The notes below the pieces were generated by a model, which worked only from the letters and a program-made list of their open reading frames with translations, had not been told where the DNA came from and did no database searches. A DNA stretch of 24,184 nucleotides from a virus, in IMG/VR virus record IMGVR_UViG_3300018416_000113, positions 1-24,184 of that record. One strand, written 5' to 3'. The stretch's first letter is position 1; the number at the start of each line of letters is the position of its first letter. Positions 6,023 through 20,936 of the stretch are shown here, one piece after another. Both the position numbers and the translations under genes were made by a program.

Positions 6023-8374
6023 TCATAGAAGACTTTGTAAGTAGTCTTTAGTCTCTGCAGGTAATTTAGTTTTCCAATCACCACCATTAGCTTCTATTAA
6101 TTTATCTACGTTTTTATAACCATAGTTGTATGCAGCTAACGCTTTTTCTTTATCTCCACGATAGTAACTTACTAACTTATCAAGATAGTTTTGTACCCAT
6201 TGAGCCTGTTCCATAATAGTAGATGTTTCAAGGTCTATAGATGGTAGCCCAAACCCTGGATCTTCTGCTGTGCTAGGAAGTATTTGGAACTGTCCTAATG
6301 CACCTTGAGGTGACTTAATTAGTTTACCTGCTTTATCTCGATGTCCTTGAGCAGATTCTTTAGGACCTAATTCATTAATAACAAAGTCTAAATCAAGCTT
6401 TTTAGCAGTAGTTTCTTGAACAAGAGTTTCTGGTTCTACAGGAGCAGTAGTTACTTCTTCTGTAGATGTAGTTTCTACTGGTTGTTCTGTTTGAGTAGGT
6501 ACTACTTCAGGAGTAACTTCTTTTTGAACTTGCTCTTGTTGAGTTGTTTTAAGACTATCTAAAATACCTTTATTTGACTCAGCAGCCATTAACTTACCAT
6601 ATGTTTTAATACTGTTGTTTAATGGTACTACATACTTATTATTAAAGTTATTTTTAGCACCAGGTACAATAACTAACCCTTGACCATCTATTTTAACAGT
6701 TAAACCTAAAGTATTAGCTTCTGCTTCCATTTGGTTATAAATTTGTGGTACAGTAGTTTCAATACTTTGAGTTAATGTACTTTGACGAGTTGCATCTAAT
6801 GATCTAACATCATCACTTGTTACTACATTAGAAGCTATACCTGCCATAGTTTCAGTATATAATTTATATTTATCAGCAGCACTATCATTTTGATTATTAA
6901 ATGCTTCATCAATACGATCAAATAAAGCATTAGCTACTTCAGTACCTTTAGTATCTCCTGATAGTTTAGTTAAAGATATTTGAATACCCTCTTGTACCAT
7001 TGATTTATTTTTATTAAGAGGACTTATATTTAACATTTCATCTAATGATGATATAGCTTTATTTCCTTCTTGTTCAAACACTTTATTAAGATTACCAACA
7101 AATTCAAGATATTCTTGAGTATTAAGAGGAATCCCTAAAGTATTTGCAACTACAGCAAGTTTTTCCATTAATGTTGCAGTTTCTGGTAAAGCTCCAAATC
7201 TTTCTCTTATATCTAATGTAATTTTATTTTCAACAATAGATTTTTGATTATCAACAAATGTTTTAATATCACTAAGATTTTTATAATTTTCTATTGTAGT
7301 TAAAGAATCATTTAAGTTATCTTTATAACGAGTAAGTCGATCTTTAATTTCAGGCTCGTTTAAACCATAAGAAGAAAATGCTAATTCAGCATCTATAATA
7401 CGATCTTTAATATATTTTTGGGCATTAGCTTTTGCTGTTGCTAACTCACTAGGAGATAGTTCTTCTCGTGTAACTATTTGCCCAGTTTGTTGATCAACAT
7501 TAGTAATAGTAAAGATTTTTTCAATTTCATTTATATCTGTAAATTGTCTATTTAATGTTATTTTATCAAATGTACGATCTTTAATAGCTCTACGAAGTTG
7601 TAATTTATCAATATTTTCACCTCGTTTTGCTGCTTTATCAAGAGCATCATCACCAAATTTAGCAGATCTTAACCACTGATTCATAGCATCCATAGCTTGA
7701 GCATCTAATTGACCATTAGGCAATCTATACAAAGCAGTATTTAAATTAAGATTATTATCTTTAGCTTCTTTATAAATCTCTTTAAACATCCATTCATCCA
7801 TACCTGCTTTAGAAGTAGCCATTTTGTCGTCAAGTTTAATACGATTTTCAATACCATTTATATCAAGAATAGTTTTACCATGAGAAAGAATCTCTGATTT
7901 TAAATAAGGATATTGTGTTATTTTTTCTTTTAAGATTTGTTTTACTCGTTGATCAAATTCAAAACCACTAACACGATCTTGAGATTTTGCTTTATCTAAG
8001 AATTGTTTTTGTGTATCTATGTCTGATAAAACATTGTTAATAGATTGATTAACATCTTCTGCAGAACCTGATTCTTGAGAAGGTAGTTTAGCTAATTCAG
8101 CCTCAGACTTTTGTAAACCTTGTTGTTGTTCTAATATTTTAGAAGGACTAGCTGATTCATAGGCTTTTATTTCATCTTCTATTTCACCTGTAATACCTTG
8201 TAACGCATTAAGTTCAGCTACATCTTTATAAATAGCTGTTGATAGTTTAGCTGCATTTGTAAACGCATTAATATCTGTAGCAGATCCATATCCTTCTGAT
8301 TTATCTATTACTGGTTGTTTAACAAAAGGAGCAACATTTCTTTCTCCTATGCTATCTGTAAAACCTTTTGCCAT
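6023..8374 (-). CDS. Internal virion / ejection protein with C-terminal lytic transglycosylase
   Basis: A 783-residue virion protein. Residues 1-610 are long helical, Gln/Asn/Lys/Glu-rich sequence with coiled-coil character. Residues 611-659 form a Thr/Glu/Pro/Val-rich linker, and about 660-783 is an SLT (soluble lytic transglycosylase) domain: catalytic Glu in KESAQGH (E673), GALGQFQILPST (691-702, matching the GxMQxxPxT motif) and ALAAYNYG (745-752). Such domains open the peptidoglycan locally so the ejection proteins can span the envelope during DNA entry. In T7 the transglycosylase is at the N-terminus of gp16; here it is at the C-terminus of the last and smaller large protein. The start shares a TAATG with the upstream 1704-aa gene, with AAGGAG 6 bases before it. 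It is the last gene of the - strand operon. Confidence 0.88.
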   Translation of the reverse strand: MAKGFTDSIGERNVAPFVKQPVIDKSEGYGSATDINAFTNAAKLSTAIYKDVAELNALQGITGEIEDEIKAYESASPSKILEQQQGLQKSEAELAKLPSQESGSAEDVNQSINNVLSDIDTQKQFLDKAKSQDRVSGFEFDQRVKQILKEKITQYPYLKSEILSHGKTILDINGIENRIKLDDKMATSKAGMDEWMFKEIYKEAKDNNLNLNTALYRLPNGQLDAQAMDAMNQWLRSAKFGDDALDKAAKRGENIDKLQLRRAIKDRTFDKITLNRQFTDINEIEKIFTITNVDQQTGQIVTREELSPSELATAKANAQKYIKDRIIDAELAFSSYGLNEPEIKDRLTRYKDNLNDSLTTIENYKNLSDIKTFVDNQKSIVENKITLDIRERFGALPETATLMEKLAVVANTLGIPLNTQEYLEFVGNLNKVFEQEGNKAISSLDEMLNISPLNKNKSMVQEGIQISLTKLSGDTKGTEVANALFDRIDEAFNNQNDSAADKYKLYTETMAGIASNVVTSDDVRSLDATRQSTLTQSIETTVPQIYNQMEAEANTLGLTVKIDGQGLVIVPGAKNNFNNKYVVPLNNSIKTYGKLMAAESNKGILDSLKTTQQEQVQKEVTPEVVPTQTEQPVETTSTEEVTTAPVEPETLVQETTAKKLDLDFVINELGPKESAQGHRDKAGKLIKSPQGALGQFQILPSTAEDPGFGLPSIDLETSTIMEQAQWVQNYLDKLVSYYRGDKEKALAAYNYGYKNVDKLIEANGGDWKTKLPAETKDYLQSLL

Positions 8375-11300
8375 TACTGTTCTCCTTTGGGTTCTGTTTG
8401 TTTAATATTAAAACGCTCTTTTAACATTTCTACTGCTTTTTTAGTAGAAGGTTTGTCTATACGTTCTAACTTGTTAATTACATTATTAATAAATTCATTA
8501 GTTTCTCGTTCTTGAGATCTAAATAATCTACCTAAAATACTTGATTCAATATCACCTTTAGCAGCTCTTCGATCAAAAGCTATAATTTGTTTTTGTATAG
8601 CTAATATATCGTCTTTAGAGAAAAATTTACCACCTTGTTCTAATACAGTTAAAGTTTCTCCTATTACTTTCATTTTATTTGTAACTGTTTCTAAAGGAGT
8701 TGCACTGCTTTTAACATCAGGACTATTAAAGATTTTTACCATTTGTTTGTAAACATCTTCAGCTACTTTTTTATTACGTTCATTACGTTTATTTTCATCT
8801 CGTAATATTGCATAAAGTTCATTTTCATTTACAGTTCTAAAACCAAACATTTGTGCTGCAAGTTCTGCTTGTGTTTTTTGTAAACTAATACTATTACCAA
8901 ATGATGTGACAATTTCACCTGATTCTGCTTGTACATAAGATTTAGTAACATTACTCATACCTGATACAAACTCAAATACTCGAGGTAATGCAGAAGTCAT
9001 TTCTTCTTTAGTAATATCTTTAGTTCTCATAAAGAAATCAAATGTATCAAAAGCTTTTAATAAAGATTGTGAACCTTGTATTGCAGGTATTCTAAATGTA
9101 CCACCTTTTTCAGTAAATATATCTTGAATATTATAAATAAACTCAATAAAAGCAAAAGGAGTACCTGATTCACCCATAGGTGCTACTGATGTTGAGTAGT
9201 CAATATTAGGTCGTTTACCTTCACCACCTTGAACAGCTTGGTAAAATAATTCATTTACAAGGTAGTTAGCTAATCCTCGTTCTATTAAAGCCCTAGTATT
9301 CTCATCTAATTGATCTTCAGGATGTTGTTTATCTAACATATCAACTAAGAACTTACCAAACATAAATCCTGCAGAACCATACATTATTGTGTGACCTGCA
9401 AACCATCTAGCTCTTGCTGCTTTAGTTAAATTAGTTGCATTGTTTTGAAAGAAAATATTAGAAATCTTTTGTACTGCAGCAAGAAATTGAAATAAACTAC
9501 TTGTTAAACCTTTTTGAAAATTAAAAGCACCTTGTCTAGTTTGTGATCCTGATAGTCTCCATCCTTCATAAAATATGTCATCTTGAGTACGTTTATCTTT
9601 TAAATTAAGATCTTTACCTGCTAGTTTACGTTTATTCATCATAGCTATATTAGCAAAGAATAATCTGTTTTGAAATTCAGCAAAGTTAAAACCAACAGTA
9701 CGAGCTACTCCAACAACACCTCTTACAGGGCTAGTAACAGCACTGACAGTTTGTTGCATTTTAGATGGATTAATAGGATTATATTTATCACCTAATAACT
9801 CGTTTACCATCATGTTAAGAGAAGCTGATTGTGCTAATCCTGATTTATTAACAGCATCTATCCAAGCTTCAAACTCTGGTACTTGCATAATTTTAAAGCC
9901 AGGTACATCTGTAACTTTTAATATACTGTGTACCATTTGTTTAATACCTTCACCTGCAGCAGTACCTTTAAACTTATCTGCTTCTGCAAGTAAACGTAAA
10001 TTTACTAAAATAGACATTGATGAGTCACGTAATGCTGTATGAGGATTACCACCTAACCATGTAACAATTTGAGTAGTTTGGACAAAAGGTTGTCGTAAAG
10101 TGTTTAAAGCAATATATAAACCAGAAGCAATTTTATTACCTAAAGAAGTAATTTGTTGTCCATCTAGTTTTCTAAGAATAGGATTAGTTCTTTTATTAAT
10201 AAAGTTAGGAGACATCCATTCAAAACCATCATAAACTTTATTAACAAACTCATTAACTAAACCCTCACCTTGAGTAAGATAAGTTTGTTGTGATTCATAA
10301 TATTTATATTTATTTAAAGCTGCTCTATATTTCTCACGATTAATATTTGGATTTATTATATCTGATTGTGATCTAGGAAATATAGGTTCACCTTGTGCAT
10401 CTCGTTTAAGAAACTCAGGATAAGTCCTTACAAAGTACTCTTCAAATACTCTAAGATGTGGATCTAATAAATTAAGTCTATCTAAAGCACGATGAGACTT
10501 AGCAAGAGATACCATCATATCTTCTAAGTTATTATTCTTAAAGTTACGACTTAAATACTCACCTCTTGTTTTAGCACTTGCTGCAGAAGCTCTATATATT
10601 TCTTGATCTGTTTTAATATCATTATATGTATTCTCTGCACGTCTAGGTTCAACGACACGATATGCAGGTTTACCATCAGCATCCATAGGTAAATCTGCTT
10701 CCATCTTTTTAGCAAATGCTTTAGCATCTTTAATAGTATCTGCTGTACCTACTACTTGTCTGTATTGTGCTAATACTTCAGGTTGTTGTTTAAACTTACC
10801 ATTTACAAATAATGAGTTAGGTTCTATTTCAATAAAGTAAACAGCTTTGTGTACTGTAGGTAAATAACCAGGTACTTTATCTAATACTTGTGTAGGTAAA
10901 GAATCTATTTGGAATTTAACAGAATCAATAACACCATATTCATAAACATCAATACGTTTATTTAAATTAAATGGATCTTGTTGTGGAAAACGTAGTTGAA
11001 CAATTTGTCGTCCATATTTATCATAAGGAATACCATCTTTAACTTTATCAAATACTAGTTCAGTACCTGCTTTTGCTTCAAAATCCCATACTAAACCAAT
11101 ATCCTCTTTGATAAAAGGAAACTCTGTTTTAATAGGTTGTAACATTGTATCTAAATTACCTTTATTGTAAATAGCTTCTTTAAAGCCACTAGCAACAAGG
11201 TCTTCTTTAAATAGTTTATTAGTGTATGCGTAATCTAATTTAGTTATTAATTTAACTGTTTGTATATCAGTATAAACAGAATCAATTAATTTAGTACGTT

Positions 11301-13488
11301 TACTAGCTTCAATTTGATCAAATAAAGGTCTATGTAACTTAACTAAATCAGCACGGCTAATATCTTTTAATCCATTTACAAATAAATGATTTAATGTTTC
11401 AAATACATAACTTGAGTGTGGTGATGTAGCTATTTTATTAATTTCTTTTACAATAGCACGAGTATTATAGTTTGTTTTTTCAGCAGCTCTTTGATAACCT
11501 TGTGATAACCAATTATCAAATTGAGCACCTAAACTCATAATATTATTACTAAATACATCTGCTGCTTTAGCAATACCTTCACTGCCAAAATAAGTTGTTT
11601 TAGGAGCTAAACCATTAGAATCATAAATATGTAAATCAAGAGGATCAAATGTTCTATCAAATTCTAAAGTTACACTTAAAGTACGTTCACTACCTTCTAA
11701 GTTCTTTTTAAACTCAGCCATGTCATTAGCATCTAATATATCTTTACCTTTACGTTCTTTAAAGTCTTGTAAGTTAAAGAATTTAGATTCTTTCATAAGA
11801 GAGTCAGGAGTATACTTTTTACCTGTATCTAAATCTTCAATATATAATTCAAGTTTACCTCTACTCTTTTCAAAGTTCTTTAAATCACCATAAAAAGCTT
11901 TACCTTGATCTATAATATCCTGTTTAATTTTATTATAAATACCAATAGCTTCTTGTCGTGAGTAAATCATATAACTATCGTCTTTACCAAAACGAGATTT
12001 ACCAAAGATATTATTTTGTGCTAAAGTAAATTTAGATTTATTTAAATGTAGTTTACCTTGACTTTCTGATACTACAGCTTGTAATAAATCAGCATATTGT
12101 TTACGAACTTCATAGTTTTGAAGAGGATTAAAGTAATTTTCTGTAAATAAATCACTAAAATCTTCAGTTAAAGTTCTTAACTTATGTTCAAGTGAAGGAG
12201 TGTTTTTAATATCAGACGTAAAGTTGTCAGCTTGATTTAACAAAGTATCATGAATAATATTGAACTTTTTATTATTTAGTTTAGTTGCTATATTATTAGT
12301 AGGATCAACAATAGCTGTAAGTGCTAACTCTCCTCCTGCTTTAGGATTTGCTTGTATTACATTATCAAGAGGACTACCATCTACTATATTTTCAGTACGT
12401 CCATTTTGATAAACACGGATACGTTCTCTTTTAGTTTTACCTGTTTGAGGATCAATATATTCTACAGTAGTATATCGTTCATTGTATTTACGAGATACAT
12501 AGTTTTTACCACCTTTAGCAATAGGGTAAGCTATTAAAGCAGTTTCAATAATTAAACTACCTTGTTCTTTATTTTTAAATATACCATTGTTAGCACCAAT
12601 TTCAGCTAAAGCTTGTATACCATCACTAATAACCATTTCACCTTTACGAACCATACTATCTCTAAACTCATCACCAATACCTACTTTATCAGCATATTGT
12701 TCTAATGTAAGCATATGTGCAGCTTTATGTATAGGATTATTAGCTTCTTTAATTAGTGTATCAGCACGTTCAGCTATTGTTTCCCAATTTACTTCACCAT
12801 TATCAATATAGTCTTTAGTAGCAAATGCCCAACGAGCCCCTAAGTTACCCATTACCTCAGGTATTTGAGTAAAAAAGTTAACTAAAGCAGTTGTTTCTGC
12901 TGTTGTTTGTTTACCCCATTGTTTCCAATTAATACTACCATTTTTATTTTTAGGTATACTAGGACCAAATTTTATTTCAGAGTTATTAAAGAAATCAATA
13001 ACATTACCAGTTAATTGTTGGTCTTCTTGTAATGATTGATAGTCTTTTTTCTCTTGACGAGAATCTATAATAGTAGATAAATGAGCATCTTGATTTTGAT
13101 CTTCAACATCAAAGTCACCACCAGGTAATGTAGATATGTTTTCTACAAAAACATCTTCTTTATCTTGAGGTTCTAATACACCTTTATAATAGTCTGCTAT
13201 TAATTGGCGTTTAGTTAAATCATCATATTGAGGATCGTCAATAATATCAGCTACTGCTGATTTATAATTATTAGCTTCTGTTTGCTGTATTTCAGCATCT
13301 TTTAAATCTCGATCTTCAGTAATACCATTCTTTAAATCTTCAGACATTTTAAATATGTCTTCAAAGTCAGCACTACCATCTAAACCTATAGTATATATAG
13401 CTTCCTCATTAGCCGTAGCATCGTTCATTAAAGGCTGAGTTTTTTCAACCTCAGGTACTATAAAGTCTTTAGGTAAATTTAATCCCAT
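8374..13488 (-). CDS. Giant internal virion / ejection protein (1704 aa)
   Basis: Largest gene in the window and almost surely a structural ejection protein, by position after the gp14-like gene and by size (T7 gp16 has 1318 aa). The first ~150 residues are acidic and Gln/Asp-rich, probably flexible. The bulk is mixed helical sequence without a recognisable enzyme motif. Two more hydrophobic stretches stand out: about 1110-1165 (SGLYIALNTLRQPFVQTTQIV) and about 1358-1387 (HTIMYGSAGFMFGKFLVDML). These are candidates for membrane contact when the protein is expelled into the host envelope. The C-terminus is Lys/Glu-rich. Ribosome site and start are clear, 3 bases after the preceding gene. It has no transglycosylase motif; that activity is in the next gene. 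Assignment is by context and composition. Confidence 0.82.
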   Translation of the reverse strand: MGLNLPKDFIVPEVEKTQPLMNDATANEEAIYTIGLDGSADFEDIFKMSEDLKNGITEDRDLKDAEIQQTEANNYKSAVADIIDDPQYDDLTKRQLIADYYKGVLEPQDKEDVFVENISTLPGGDFDVEDQNQDAHLSTIIDSRQEKKDYQSLQEDQQLTGNVIDFFNNSEIKFGPSIPKNKNGSINWKQWGKQTTAETTALVNFFTQIPEVMGNLGARWAFATKDYIDNGEVNWETIAERADTLIKEANNPIHKAAHMLTLEQYADKVGIGDEFRDSMVRKGEMVISDGIQALAEIGANNGIFKNKEQGSLIIETALIAYPIAKGGKNYVSRKYNERYTTVEYIDPQTGKTKRERIRVYQNGRTENIVDGSPLDNVIQANPKAGGELALTAIVDPTNNIATKLNNKKFNIIHDTLLNQADNFTSDIKNTPSLEHKLRTLTEDFSDLFTENYFNPLQNYEVRKQYADLLQAVVSESQGKLHLNKSKFTLAQNNIFGKSRFGKDDSYMIYSRQEAIGIYNKIKQDIIDQGKAFYGDLKNFEKSRGKLELYIEDLDTGKKYTPDSLMKESKFFNLQDFKERKGKDILDANDMAEFKKNLEGSERTLSVTLEFDRTFDPLDLHIYDSNGLAPKTTYFGSEGIAKAADVFSNNIMSLGAQFDNWLSQGYQRAAEKTNYNTRAIVKEINKIATSPHSSYVFETLNHLFVNGLKDISRADLVKLHRPLFDQIEASKRTKLIDSVYTDIQTVKLITKLDYAYTNKLFKEDLVASGFKEAIYNKGNLDTMLQPIKTEFPFIKEDIGLVWDFEAKAGTELVFDKVKDGIPYDKYGRQIVQLRFPQQDPFNLNKRIDVYEYGVIDSVKFQIDSLPTQVLDKVPGYLPTVHKAVYFIEIEPNSLFVNGKFKQQPEVLAQYRQVVGTADTIKDAKAFAKKMEADLPMDADGKPAYRVVEPRRAENTYNDIKTDQEIYRASAASAKTRGEYLSRNFKNNNLEDMMVSLAKSHRALDRLNLLDPHLRVFEEYFVRTYPEFLKRDAQGEPIFPRSQSDIINPNINREKYRAALNKYKYYESQQTYLTQGEGLVNEFVNKVYDGFEWMSPNFINKRTNPILRKLDGQQITSLGNKIASGLYIALNTLRQPFVQTTQIVTWLGGNPHTALRDSSMSILVNLRLLAEADKFKGTAAGEGIKQMVHSILKVTDVPGFKIMQVPEFEAWIDAVNKSGLAQSASLNMMVNELLGDKYNPINPSKMQQTVSAVTSPVRGVVGVARTVGFNFAEFQNRLFFANIAMMNKRKLAGKDLNLKDKRTQDDIFYEGWRLSGSQTRQGAFNFQKGLTSSLFQFLAAVQKISNIFFQNNATNLTKAARARWFAGHTIMYGSAGFMFGKFLVDMLDKQHPEDQLDENTRALIERGLANYLVNELFYQAVQGGEGKRPNIDYSTSVAPMGESGTPFAFIEFIYNIQDIFTEKGGTFRIPAIQGSQSLLKAFDTFDFFMRTKDITKEEMTSALPRVFEFVSGMSNVTKSYVQAESGEIVTSFGNSISLQKTQAELAAQMFGFRTVNENELYAILRDENKRNERNKKVAEDVYKQMVKIFNSPDVKSSATPLETVTNKMKVIGETLTVLEQGGKFFSKDDILAIQKQIIAFDRRAAKGDIESSILGRLFRSQERETNEFINNVINKLERIDKPSTKKAVEMLKERFNIKQTEPKGEQ

Positions 13489-16686: not shown

Positions 16687-16929
16687 TTAGTCTTCCTTAT
16701 TTAAATTAAGTGTTTCTTTTACTTTCTTAGCTTGTTTCTTTTGTTGAGCTGTTAATAAATAGCTACGAGCAGCAACATCAGCTATACGTTCTGATGTAAA
16801 ATGTCCATCTAATGAGTGAGGTAGTTCACCACCACTTCCAAATTGAAACTTAAGATGAGCAGTAGTAGGACAAATAAACAACTGTAATTCTTTGCCACCT
16901 TCTGTTTCATATGTTTTAATAACTTTCAT
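16687..16929 (-). CDS. Small protein of unknown function (80 aa)
   Basis: Not recognised. An 80-residue protein with an N-terminal half of predicted strands (MKVIKTYETEGGKELQLFICP) and a C-terminal basic helix rich in Lys and Gln (LLTAQQKKQAKKVKETLNL). No signal peptide, membrane segment or enzyme motif. It lies between the tail tube A and tail tube B genes and joins its neighbours with almost no spacing (2 bases upstream, 0 downstream). A structural or assembly role is likely by position only. AAATAAAGATG precedes, so the ribosome site is weak and translation probably depends on the upstream gene. Confidence 0.7.
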   Translation of the reverse strand: MKVIKTYETEGGKELQLFICPTTAHLKFQFGSGGELPHSLDGHFTSERIADVAARSYLLTAQQKKQAKKVKETLNLNKED

Positions 16930-16931
16930 CT

Positions 16932-17138
16932 TTATTTCTTCTTTCTTATTTTGTCTTGTACTTCAGCAGGATTACCATTTTTAGGAGCTTCTTTAATAGT
17001 ACGTACTCGTTCTTGGTTATCTTCTATTACTTCTTTAGTTTTATTTCTAGAATCTTCTTCATATTCACCAAAGTTATCAAGAATGTCTTGTAATTGTTTT
17101 TTAGTTAATCCATTAGGTTTTTTATTATCTTGAGCCAT
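16932..17138 (-). CDS. Small charged protein of unknown function (68 aa)
   Basis: Not recognised. A 68-residue, very hydrophilic protein: Lys, Glu, Asp, Asn and Gln make up most of it, and the end is basic (DKIRKKK). It is predicted to be one or two helices (KKQLQDILDNFGEY), probably partly disordered. No membrane segment, so it is not a holin candidate. The start is ATG at 17138, one base after the stop of the hidden 53-aa gene, with AAGGA 9 bases upstream lying inside that gene. Located within the tail gene cluster; function unknown. Confidence 0.72.
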   Translation of the reverse strand: MAQDNKKPNGLTKKQLQDILDNFGEYEEDSRNKTKEVIEDNQERVRTIKEAPKNGNPAEVQDKIRKKK

Positions 17139-17139
17139 A

Positions 17140-17301
17140 TTAATATCCTTGTTTTTTAGGTTTACCCATTTTCTTCATTGGTTTCTTTTTAGGCATAGTT
17201 TTCTTTTTCATAGGTTTCATAGTTTTTTTACCTTTCTTAGTTGATTTACCATATTGTTCTTTATGAACAAATGATTGAGTGTTGCTCGTTAATTGACTCA
17301 T
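17140..17301 (-). CDS. Small Lys-rich protein with capsid-like N-terminus (53 aa)
   Basis: A short gene that fills an otherwise empty 162-base gap. It starts with ATG whose first base is the last base of the tail-tube-A stop codon (TAATG) and ends TAA one base before the next ATG, so the packing supports it. The product has 18 Lys in 53 residues, 6 Met, one Glu and no Asp: a highly basic tail with repeated MKP/MPK/KKxM patterns from residue 28 to the end. Residues 1-17, MSQLTSNTQSFVHKEQY, closely match the first residues of the major capsid protein, MAQLTSNTTAFIESQQY (10 of 17 identical), although the codons differ at synonymous sites. It may bind DNA or be carried in the virion; this is inference. 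No strong ribosome site of its own, so translation is coupled. Confidence 0.75.
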   Translation of the reverse strand: MSQLTSNTQSFVHKEQYGKSTKKGKKTMKPMKKKTMPKKKPMKKMGKPKKQGY

Positions 17302-18077
17302 TAGTAGTTAGGTTTTCCTTTAATACCTGGTTTACGACCATAGTTTCCAAATGTAATACCATTCTTTAATCTCCAAGCTTCTTGACTCATTCTACGTTTT
17401 TGAGATATAGATGCTTGTTCAGCTTTAGGATTAGGCATTTGTTTTAATGTAAGGAAACAATTTGATTTAGCTTCTGCTAGTAAATATGTAAACATTTGTA
17501 CAGGAAGATCAGGAGTAAATGAATCAGATAATGTAAATGCTACAGATCGTTTACCTTGTGCTTTAGTTTTAGTAGCAACTAATGTAGAATCTACAACACT
17601 ATCATAAGCATCAAATACTAACATTTCATCGTCAAAAGATGTAAAGTAGTTAGGACCTTGATCATTATAAATATTTAAAGTAATACCAGTAGTATCTGTA
17701 ACTACAGTAACATCAGAAGCAGAGCTATCTCTTTGATCTACAATATACATAAAGTCTTCAGGTGTTTTATAAATAATTTCTTTATATTTATCTTTAGTAT
17801 CTGTTGACTTACGACAATTATATTTTATCCATTTAAGATCAATAATATCGTCAGGTAATGACATATGAGTAGGTCTACTTGCTGTGCCTGATGCTTCTAA
17901 TTGAAATAACTCATATAAAAACGGCATATCACGACCATCTATAATATTATAGTAAGTTGATTTAATAAGTTGAGCTACTTGAGTGGCTTCTTGAGTATCA
18001 TTAATACTATTAATTTCATCAGAATCCATGTCTGACATAATGTCTTGTACCATTTCAAGTAGTGTCATTTTAGCCAT
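17301..18077 (-). CDS. Tail tubular protein A / head-tail adaptor (T7 gp11-like)
   Basis: A 258-residue adaptor protein that forms the ring between portal and nozzle (T7 gp11 has 196 aa). The N-terminal half is helical and acidic (MTLLEMVQDIMSDMDSDEI, then ATQVAQLIKSTYYNIIDGRDMPFLYEL). The motif with LPDDIIDLKWIKYN (73-86) is typical of gp11/gp4-like adaptors, as is the late helix region TYLLAEAKSNCFLTLKQ (198-214) and the basic Arg/Lys/Gly-rich end. Its place upstream of the gp12-like gene fits. The start is ATG at 18077, 9 bases after the fibre-like gene, with AGGAATAA upstream. Assignment rests on motif order, length and synteny. Confidence 0.83.
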   Translation of the reverse strand: MAKMTLLEMVQDIMSDMDSDEINSINDTQEATQVAQLIKSTYYNIIDGRDMPFLYELFQLEASGTASRPTHMSLPDDIIDLKWIKYNCRKSTDTKDKYKEIIYKTPEDFMYIVDQRDSSASDVTVVTDTTGITLNIYNDQGPNYFTSFDDEMLVFDAYDSVVDSTLVATKTKAQGKRSVAFTLSDSFTPDLPVQMFTYLLAEAKSNCFLTLKQMPNPKAEQASISQKRRMSQEAWRLKNGITFGNYGRKPGIKGKPNY

Positions 18078-19216: not shown

Positions 19217-20197
19217 TTAGTAATTAGATGGATGTGTTAAAATTACACCCAATGTGTCAACACGTTGAGCACCAAAACCAAAGCGAGAAGTAACTTGATA
19301 CTTGTCAGCTCTTTCTTCGTTGTCTCTCCAACCTTCTGTTTTTGGAGCACGTCTCCATGCGTGCATAATTGGCTTACATGAATCGTCAGCCACACACATA
19401 AATACGTTTGCTTTATCACCAACTGCAGCAGTTTCTGATGTTAAGCCATAAGAAGAAGCATTAATAGCTTCAGCAGCAGTTAATGTAGGTAAGAAGTTAG
19501 AAGTATAAATGTCGAAACCAAAGATGTTTTTAACAAATTTATGGTCACGAGCAAAACCTTCTGTAACAATACCTTCAAACATTGGGTTGTTAGATACGTT
19601 TACTAAGTTTTGTAAACTGTTTAATGTTGCTTCAACAACTGGATCAACGATAGCAATACGACCACCTGCAGGAACATTAGCTTTATCGAAAGCTAATTTC
19701 ATAGCGATGAAGTCGTTTAGTGTTATTGTTCTAGCGTTAGCAGCAGCAGAACCTACGAAACGGTGAGGACGACCATTAACTAAGTTTAAGTTAGCAGCAG
19801 TCTGAGCACTGTTAGATGCAGCTAAGTATTTAGTTTCGTGGTTTTCACCTAATGCACGTGTAGATTCCATAGCTCTCATAGACATTAATGTGTCTACTTG
19901 ATTACCATCTTCACGTAAGTCATCAGATACTTTCCAAGCATCACCAACATAGTCAGTGATAGCAAGTGTTAAGTTACCTGTGTCGATTGGTGAGAAGTTA
20001 AGAGGTGTATCTTCAGCAGCATCTTGAAGTGTTACAGTACCTACTGTTTTGATGTTAAGAGTTGTACCTGAACCAAAGTCTGTTACGTCTCTCCACATAC
20101 CTTCAGGAAGTAGATAGTCATGTAAGTTTTCAAGGATGAACTGAGAATACTGTTGCGATTCAATGAACGCAGTTGTATTACTTGTTAATTGTGCCAT
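19217..20197 (-). CDS. Major capsid protein (HK97-fold type)
   Basis: The shell protein of the head, 326 residues. The N-terminal part has a helix (FIESQQYSQFILENLHDYLLPEG) followed by a strand-rich segment with DFGSGTTLNIKTVGTVTLQD, the usual N-arm to E-loop transition of HK97-fold capsids. Then come the spine-helix-like region MSMRAMESTRALGENHETKYL and typical P-domain and A-domain sections (GGRIAIVDPVVEATL, KNIFGFDIYTSNFLP). It ends RVDTLGVILTHPSNY. Position after scaffold and before a decoration-like gene is the standard podoviral order. Ribosome site AAGGAG lies 8 bases before ATG. The codon choice here is less AT-biased than in the neighbouring structural genes, as expected for a highly expressed protein. 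Its first residues are echoed by a small protein at 17301-17140. Confidence 0.93.
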   Translation of the reverse strand: MAQLTSNTTAFIESQQYSQFILENLHDYLLPEGMWRDVTDFGSGTTLNIKTVGTVTLQDAAEDTPLNFSPIDTGNLTLAITDYVGDAWKVSDDLREDGNQVDTLMSMRAMESTRALGENHETKYLAASNSAQTAANLNLVNGRPHRFVGSAAANARTITLNDFIAMKLAFDKANVPAGGRIAIVDPVVEATLNSLQNLVNVSNNPMFEGIVTEGFARDHKFVKNIFGFDIYTSNFLPTLTAAEAINASSYGLTSETAAVGDKANVFMCVADDSCKPIMHAWRRAPKTEGWRDNEERADKYQVTSRFGFGAQRVDTLGVILTHPSNY

Positions 20198-20210: not shown

Positions 20211-20936
20211 TTAATTATTTAATTGACGTTTTACTTTTTCACCTGCAGCTTTCCAAGCAGCTAACATATCTTTAGTAGAAGCACCTTTAGGTACTCTAGC
20301 AGATAGTTCATCTGTACTTTGTTTGCTTAAAGTTTCTGTATTAACAGTACTTTGTGGTTTTGCAACAGATGTTGGCTTGTTTTCAAAACCTGCTAACTTA
20401 AGTACAACATTTGGAGATGTTGCAGATAAAGTATGTAATTGATCTAATGTCATACCTGCTTCTTTTGCTAAAGTATTATAAACAGCTTCAGCTTGACTAC
20501 CATACTTCTCAGTAAACTTGTCAGCTACTGTTTTAGCATTGGTTTGTGCTTTAGTCTGTTGTTCTCTTTGTGCAATCGTTGCATTGACTAGATCCATGAT
20601 TCTATCTTGGTTTATTTCACCTTGAGAGGTGGTAGCCTCTTGTGGTTGAATACCAGACTTTATTTCATCCAGTAACTCTTCTGTAGTTCTACGTTTAGAT
20701 AGTTCCTCTTTCAATTGAGCCATTTCAGTTTCTAACGTCTGAATATGCTCTTGAGCATGAGGTACAGATCTTAACGCATCTTCTGCAGATTTGTACTTTT
20801 TACCTTCGCCTACAAACTCTTGAGCTTCTGTCGGTATCTCAAAAGCTTTAGCTTGGGTATCTTGTTGCTGAGTCTCTTGGGTAGTTGACTCAACAGGTTG
20901 TTCTTGTTGTTCTTGTGTTACTTGCTCTTCAGCCAT
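20211..20936 (-). CDS. Scaffolding protein
   Basis: A 241-residue protein with all the usual features of a capsid assembly scaffold: a Gln/Glu/Thr-rich, disordered N-terminus (MAEEQVTQEQQEQ...), a coiled-coil helix (about 60-90, HIQTLETEMAQLKEELSK), further helices, and a basic C-terminal helix (DMLAAWKAAGEKVKRQLNN) like the capsid-binding end of the P22 and T7 scaffolds. It lies directly upstream of the major capsid gene. It would guide capsid shell assembly and leave before or during DNA packaging. Start ATG is joined to the preceding stop by TAATG; GGAG lies 6 bases upstream. No enzyme motif; in particular no protease motif was seen, so it is not a fused maturation protease. Confidence 0.88.
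   Translation of the reverse strand: MAEEQVTQEQQEQPVESTTQETQQQDTQAKAFEIPTEAQEFVGEGKKYKSAEDALRSVPHAQEHIQTLETEMAQLKEELSKRRTTEELLDEIKSGIQPQEATTSQGEINQDRIMDLVNATIAQREQQTKAQTNAKTVADKFTEKYGSQAEAVYNTLAKEAGMTLDQLHTLSATSPNVVLKLAGFENKPTSVAKPQSTVNTETLSKQSTDELSARVPKGASTKDMLAAWKAAGEKVKRQLNN

Follow-up and report, generated by a model that had tools for sequence, protein, structure and literature searches.

A short Lys-rich protein of Zobellviridae-like podoviruses carries a conserved and selected likeness of the major capsid protein N-terminus

The 53-aa protein encoded on the minus strand at 17140..17301 of the DNA analysed here (the window: 24,184 nt, positions 1 to 24,184 of IMG/VR record IMGVR_UViG_3300018416_000113) begins like the major capsid protein (MCP) of the same phage, and we conclude that this likeness is real, conserved and selected. 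We refer to the gene as the capsid-arm mimic. Our leading proposal for its role, to which we give roughly even chances, is that the mimic is a small, basic protein of the head, with its copy of the MCP N-arm serving as address tag.

The window comes from a podovirus of Zobellviridae type and encodes a terminase, portal (Head-tail_con), scaffold, MCP, adaptor, tail appendage (phrog_8094), large internal protein and SLT transglycosylase protein. Among named relatives, ctOsX528 and the Methylophilales phages MEP402 and MEP401 stand nearest by MCP (76-78% identical). The features that concern us are as follows.

17140..17301, minus strand: capsid-arm-mimic gene, 53 aa, MSQLTSNTQSFVHKEQY followed by a Lys-rich tail ending in KKQGY; ORF and family conserved in related loci
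17251..17301, minus strand: mimic codons 1-17, with the MCP-like motif N-T-x-[AS]-F-[IV]-x-x-[QE]-Q-Y; 10/17 residues identical to MCP
17140..17250, minus strand: mimic codons 18-53 and stop, the fast-evolving Lys-rich tail, as judged from pN/pS and charge across relatives
17301..18077, minus strand: head-completion adaptor (tail tube A-like), upstream of the mimic; phrog_7592, E=4e-87
19217..20197, minus strand: MCP, N-terminus MAQLTSNTTAFIESQQYSQFILENL; phrog_267, PF25209, and PDB 9jwb at E=2.8e-11 by profile
20147..20197, minus strand: MCP codons 1-17, the copied N-arm, deeply conserved in Zobellviridae
20211..20936, minus strand: scaffold protein, the candidate docking partner; phrog_7931, with a homologue annotated as scaffold in MEP401/402

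Three other genes of the window deserve mention. An 80-aa protein (16687-16929, minus strand) carries the motif G-G-x-x-P-x-x-L-x-G-x-Y-T; genes of this family (phrog_9082) lie between the adaptor and the tail appendage in nearly all Zobellviridae examined, including those that lack the mimic. The mimic is followed by a 68-aa charged gene (16932-17138, minus strand), which in relatives is strongly variable or swapped for other small genes; the interval from adaptor to tail appendage thus contains a variable cargo slot. The 1704-aa protein at 8374-13488 (minus strand) occupies the position of an internal virion protein and had no PHROG match at E 0.001.

The complete product of the mimic ORF, read from 17301 to 17140, is MSQLTSNTQSFVHKEQYGKSTKKGKKTMKPMKKKTMPKKKPMKKMGKPKKQGY; it starts with ATG, whose A is shared with the adaptor stop codon (TAATG, a 1-base overlap), and contains 18 Lys. 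Aligned over the first 17 residues, the mimic (MSQLTSNTQSFVHKEQY) and the MCP (MAQLTSNTTAFIESQQY) are identical at 10 positions and similar at 14, with a BLASTP E-value of 3e-06 in one single comparison. Translation of the ORF and the alignment thus confirm two counts made in an earlier reading from the sequence only, namely 10 of 17 identities to the MCP start and 18 Lys among 53 residues. The match is confined to residues 1-17 and the remainder is Lys-rich; the HK97 fold domains that follow the N-arm in the MCP are absent from the mimic.

A stretch of just 17 residues invites the suspicion that two short, low-complexity N-termini look alike by chance. The comparative data already refute this explanation, the probability of which we consider negligible: nine identities among the 16 positions after Met arose only 5 times per 1,000,000 shuffles, the likeness recurs in about 126 loci, and it is seen in no other ORF. 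Among approximately 4,800 other ORFs in related loci, no ORF had more than 6/16 identities to the MCP of the same locus, with the single exception of one mis-sorted mimic copy.

The codons of the ten shared residues are the same in mimic and MCP in four cases and synonymous in six, where the sequence-only reading had put the synonymous differences at four or more. Across relatives, codon identity at shared residues was 0.533 within genomes and 0.549 between genomes. Mimic and MCP of one genome thus share codons no more often than those of different genomes. This argues against a recent duplication and against gene conversion, and we reject both as the source of the likeness to the MCP start.

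Over 84 distinct genome pairs, the F and Y of the mimic motif are invariant (84/84 each), T at -3 is present in 79/84 and N at -4 in 73/84; the residues around F are mostly A/S, I/V, Q/E and Q. In closely related pairs, the motif had a pN/pS of 0.14 and the tail one of 0.43. Mimic proteins range from 30 to 72 aa across relatives, with a tail net charge of +6 to +20 (median +15). We conclude that the motif is under strong purifying selection, and that the tail is relaxed with its charge kept. The MCP N-terminus is itself conserved deep in the family (NT-x-A-x-I...YS). Its invariant Glu13 is not retained in mimics, most of which have His, Asn or Lys instead, often with Lys also at position 14. 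The kept residues N, T, A/S, F, I/V, Q/E, Q and Y (at -4, -3, -1, 0, +1, +4, +5 and +6 from F) would suit a capped helix with one conserved face.

The motif is also restricted to two proteins. When 16,351 ORFs from both strands were scanned with a motif profile, 226 matches were to MCPs, 132 to mimics and 49 to others; the 49 consist of one divergent MCP (ICP2) and weak noise, and no third carrier of the motif was found among these ORFs. Taken together, the codon comparison, the selection on the motif and its restriction support the view, already put forward from the sequence, that the likeness lies at the protein level and does not reflect a fresh DNA duplication.

That reading had also proposed that co-selection would show as conserved identity in both N-termini across related phages. 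Here the outcome was divided. Motif residues upstream of F agreed better with the MCP of the same genome than in shuffled pairs (4.79 versus 4.38; 0/5000 shuffles as high), but tree-independent pairs pointed the same way only 3.5 versus 0.6 times, with p 0.375. Co-variation of the two N-termini is therefore suggestive, and not significant after tree correction.

A tblastn search with the 53-aa protein against phage records gave no match, the query being short and subject to the low-complexity filter, and relatives were for this reason traced through their MCP neighbours: MCP-anchored scans of viral contigs yielded approximately 220 loci. A strict-motif copy lies directly behind the adaptor in 90/130 loci with a whole adaptor-to-tail interval, and about 20 more have a looser copy; the overlap with the adaptor gene is usually 1 or 4 bases. 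Scanning with the mimic's own family profile returned only loci with the adaptor alongside. We classified 146 loci as carrying a mimic (123), a basic peptide without the motif (6) or neither (17); three of the non-mimic calls (L026, L063 and L065) were in error, as clear copies are present there, so that the raw 123 becomes approximately 126 by hand. With this manual correction, approximately 126/135 loci with an MCP at least 70% identical have a mimic, and 0/11 of the more distant relatives do. Two loci, L237 and L258, represent the same region occurring twice on one 74.8-kb IMG/VR contig (3300021961_000065), which is probably a concatemer or chimera.

The carriers are mostly aquatic phages related to Zobellviridae. 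By position and motif, MEP401 gp37 (WBF78090.1) and MEP402 gp39 (WBF78159.1) are orthologues; they start with TTG and read LTFTTANTLSFIHKEQYGKKKKK, the MCPs of these phages start MAH[N/T]TANTTAFIESQQY, and both genes are annotated as hypothetical protein. The MEP401/402 paper notes neither a function nor mimicry for gp37 or gp39, and reports no virion proteomics or mass spectrometry (PMC10580990). The mimic is absent from ctOsX528 and from the other Zobellviridae sampled (CW02, PA11, CVT22, Pecta, ICP2, RIO-1, VpV262, SIO1 and CRP-4). On the MCP tree its presence requires approximately 5-6 changes, a number partly inflated by the three misclassified loci, and on this basis more than one gain or loss of the mimic is probable. 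Relatives without the motif, or without the gene altogether, show that it is dispensable in part of the group.

The sequence-only reading would have been undermined by stops in the small frame in relatives, or by one N-terminus being kept while the other varied freely. For the most part neither was seen: the frames are intact, and only a few lineages have lost the motif. One mimic variant (MGQFTFNTLSFIDKEVYEKKK) is paired with two MCP N-termini, MAHNTANT and MAQLTSNT, in L143, L152 and L155; since the same variant adjoins two different MCPs, recombination can separate the pair.

In L168-L170 and L224 the site holds only a basic peptide, with no capsid-like motif, and thus the basic part can exist alone. 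Across these loci and L221, the peptide is either 15-38 aa long and motif-less or a 30-aa minimal version (MNTQDTSFVNKEKYSKTKKKK...), and such forms are possible steps in the gain or loss of mimicry. The motif-less peptides speak for a reading in which the likeness is shared ancestry only: the MCP start would have been partially duplicated long ago, and the product would since have taken up an unrelated role, such as that of a nucleic-acid-binding or host-directed basic peptide. We regard this as very improbable, since F, Y and NT are conserved over the 84 distinct pairs while the flanks diverge, and since the motif has a pN/pS of 0.14; a relic would not retain MCP-like residues.

Under our leading proposal, that of a head protein with a copied address tag, the mimic motif would fold into the short helix or arm that it forms in the MCP, and would occupy an MCP N-arm site, either on the procapsid scaffold or among the N-arms of neighbouring MCPs in the shell. 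The mimic would thereby be co-assembled within the head, where its Lys tail might neutralise or anchor packaged DNA, or leave with it. The N-arm precedents in P22 and SPP1 suggest that a free peptide with an MCP-like arm could take an arm site on scaffold or shell; the step from motif to docking, the binding partner and the location in the virion are presumptive. The retained N, T, F, I/V, Q and Y would fit a hydrophobic helix face or N-arm pairing. Loss of the MCP-invariant Glu13 in mimics weakens the case for an exact copy of an acidic scaffold contact of the P22 type. The scaffold has a conserved basic C-terminal helix, as judged from alignment and an AF2 model, for which no PDB match was found. 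The AF2 model of the MCP had a pLDDT of 41.5 and an unusable fold, with a low-confidence helix at residues 9-24, and Foldseek returned weak capsid matches only.

A more novel reading is that the mimic acts as a capsid decoy, in which a stand-alone MCP N-arm with a DNA-binding tail sits at the N-arm sites of shell or scaffold and tethers the shell to DNA. We advance this tentatively, and with the same reserve we note that it would be a previously undescribed mode of head construction.

The location of the gene behind the adaptor, away from MCP and scaffold, counts against the head-protein proposal and bears on two other roles; signs that the mimic is expressed or present in virions were likewise not found. 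The mimic might instead regulate assembly, with its peptide and the MCP N-arm in competition for sites on scaffold or shell and no need for the peptide to stay in the virion. Such competition could affect timing, scaffold release, or portal-vertex sites left empty for want of a penton, with the Lys tail binding acidic scaffold, portal or DNA. The motif is conserved and restricted to MCP and mimic, the overlap with the adaptor suggests expression coupled to a low-copy neck protein, and competition for a site has a precedent in SaPI1 CpmB versus scaffold on the capsid protein (PMC5644958). Nonetheless we think this role unlikely, given that DNA is the simplest explanation of a strongly basic disordered tail and that neither capsid size nor assembly is known to be altered. 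Alternatively, the mimic might be a virion protein of the neck or the vicinity of the portal. Produced together with the adaptor, it would fill N-arm sites at the portal vertex, and its Lys tail would anchor the last DNA end or ejection proteins. Its position behind the adaptor is invariant, usually with the 1- or 4-base overlap, yet gene order is the sole basis for this role, and we judge it improbable.

As far as could be tested, the mimic family is undescribed so far. Pfam, PHROG and NCBIfam models gave no match at E 0.1 for 17 mimic members, the mimic had no PDB match, and no capsid-arm mimic was found described in the open-access literature searched. A head-protein mechanism is plausible, and it is testable on cultivated phages. 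If it is true, a phage can bring a small basic protein into its head with a copy of the assembly arm of its own shell protein. A family of common aquatic phages would then have a natural capsid-targeting tag of approximately 17 residues, with which N-arm function could be probed and tested, and short genes now left as hypothetical would gain a function as a family.

The known systems closest to this proposal differ from it in what is copied and by whom. In P22, the coat N-arm is bound by the C-terminal helices of the scaffold, with Arg/Lys contacting Asp14, Glu15 and Glu18, and Ser285 contacting Asn4 (PMC9965877). SPP1 has an MCP N-terminal helix that is held by the scaffold and, once released, forms the N-arm; these arms pair antiparallel with neighbouring N-arms through residues that include Ile, Phe and Tyr (PMC6813328). 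In both phages docking thus takes place at the coat N-terminal helix, of which the mimic would be a copy, whereas the passages considered describe no separate small protein carrying the arm (PMC9965877, PMC6813328). The internal proteins IPI-III of T4, with their capsid-targeting sequence (CTS), resemble the mimic in having a short conserved N-terminal tag, a diverse remainder and lysines, which in T4 contact DNA phosphates (PMC3012670). The mimic likewise combines a conserved short N-terminal tag with a divergent remainder (pN/pS 0.14 versus 0.43; targeting by the tag is putative). A prohead protease, which would cleave such a tag, is not named among the annotated MEP401/402 genes in the stretches examined. 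The CTS is common to several cargoes, which it sends to the scaffold core, whereas the mimic tag is a copy of the MCP N-terminus, found in MCP and mimic only, with one carrier per genome seen here; because the tag is not shared among cargoes, the mimic is not a member of the T4 CTS internal proteins. SaPI1 CpmB is a small protein that, as proposed for the mimic, reproduces a motif of an assembly interface and thereby competes for a binding site, in this case with scaffold on the capsid protein (PMC5644958). CpmB, however, is the product of a parasite and imitates the C-terminus of the scaffold. The mimic has a Lys-rich C-terminus in place of a scaffold-like capsid-binding one, copies the capsid arm at its N-terminus, and is encoded by the phage itself.
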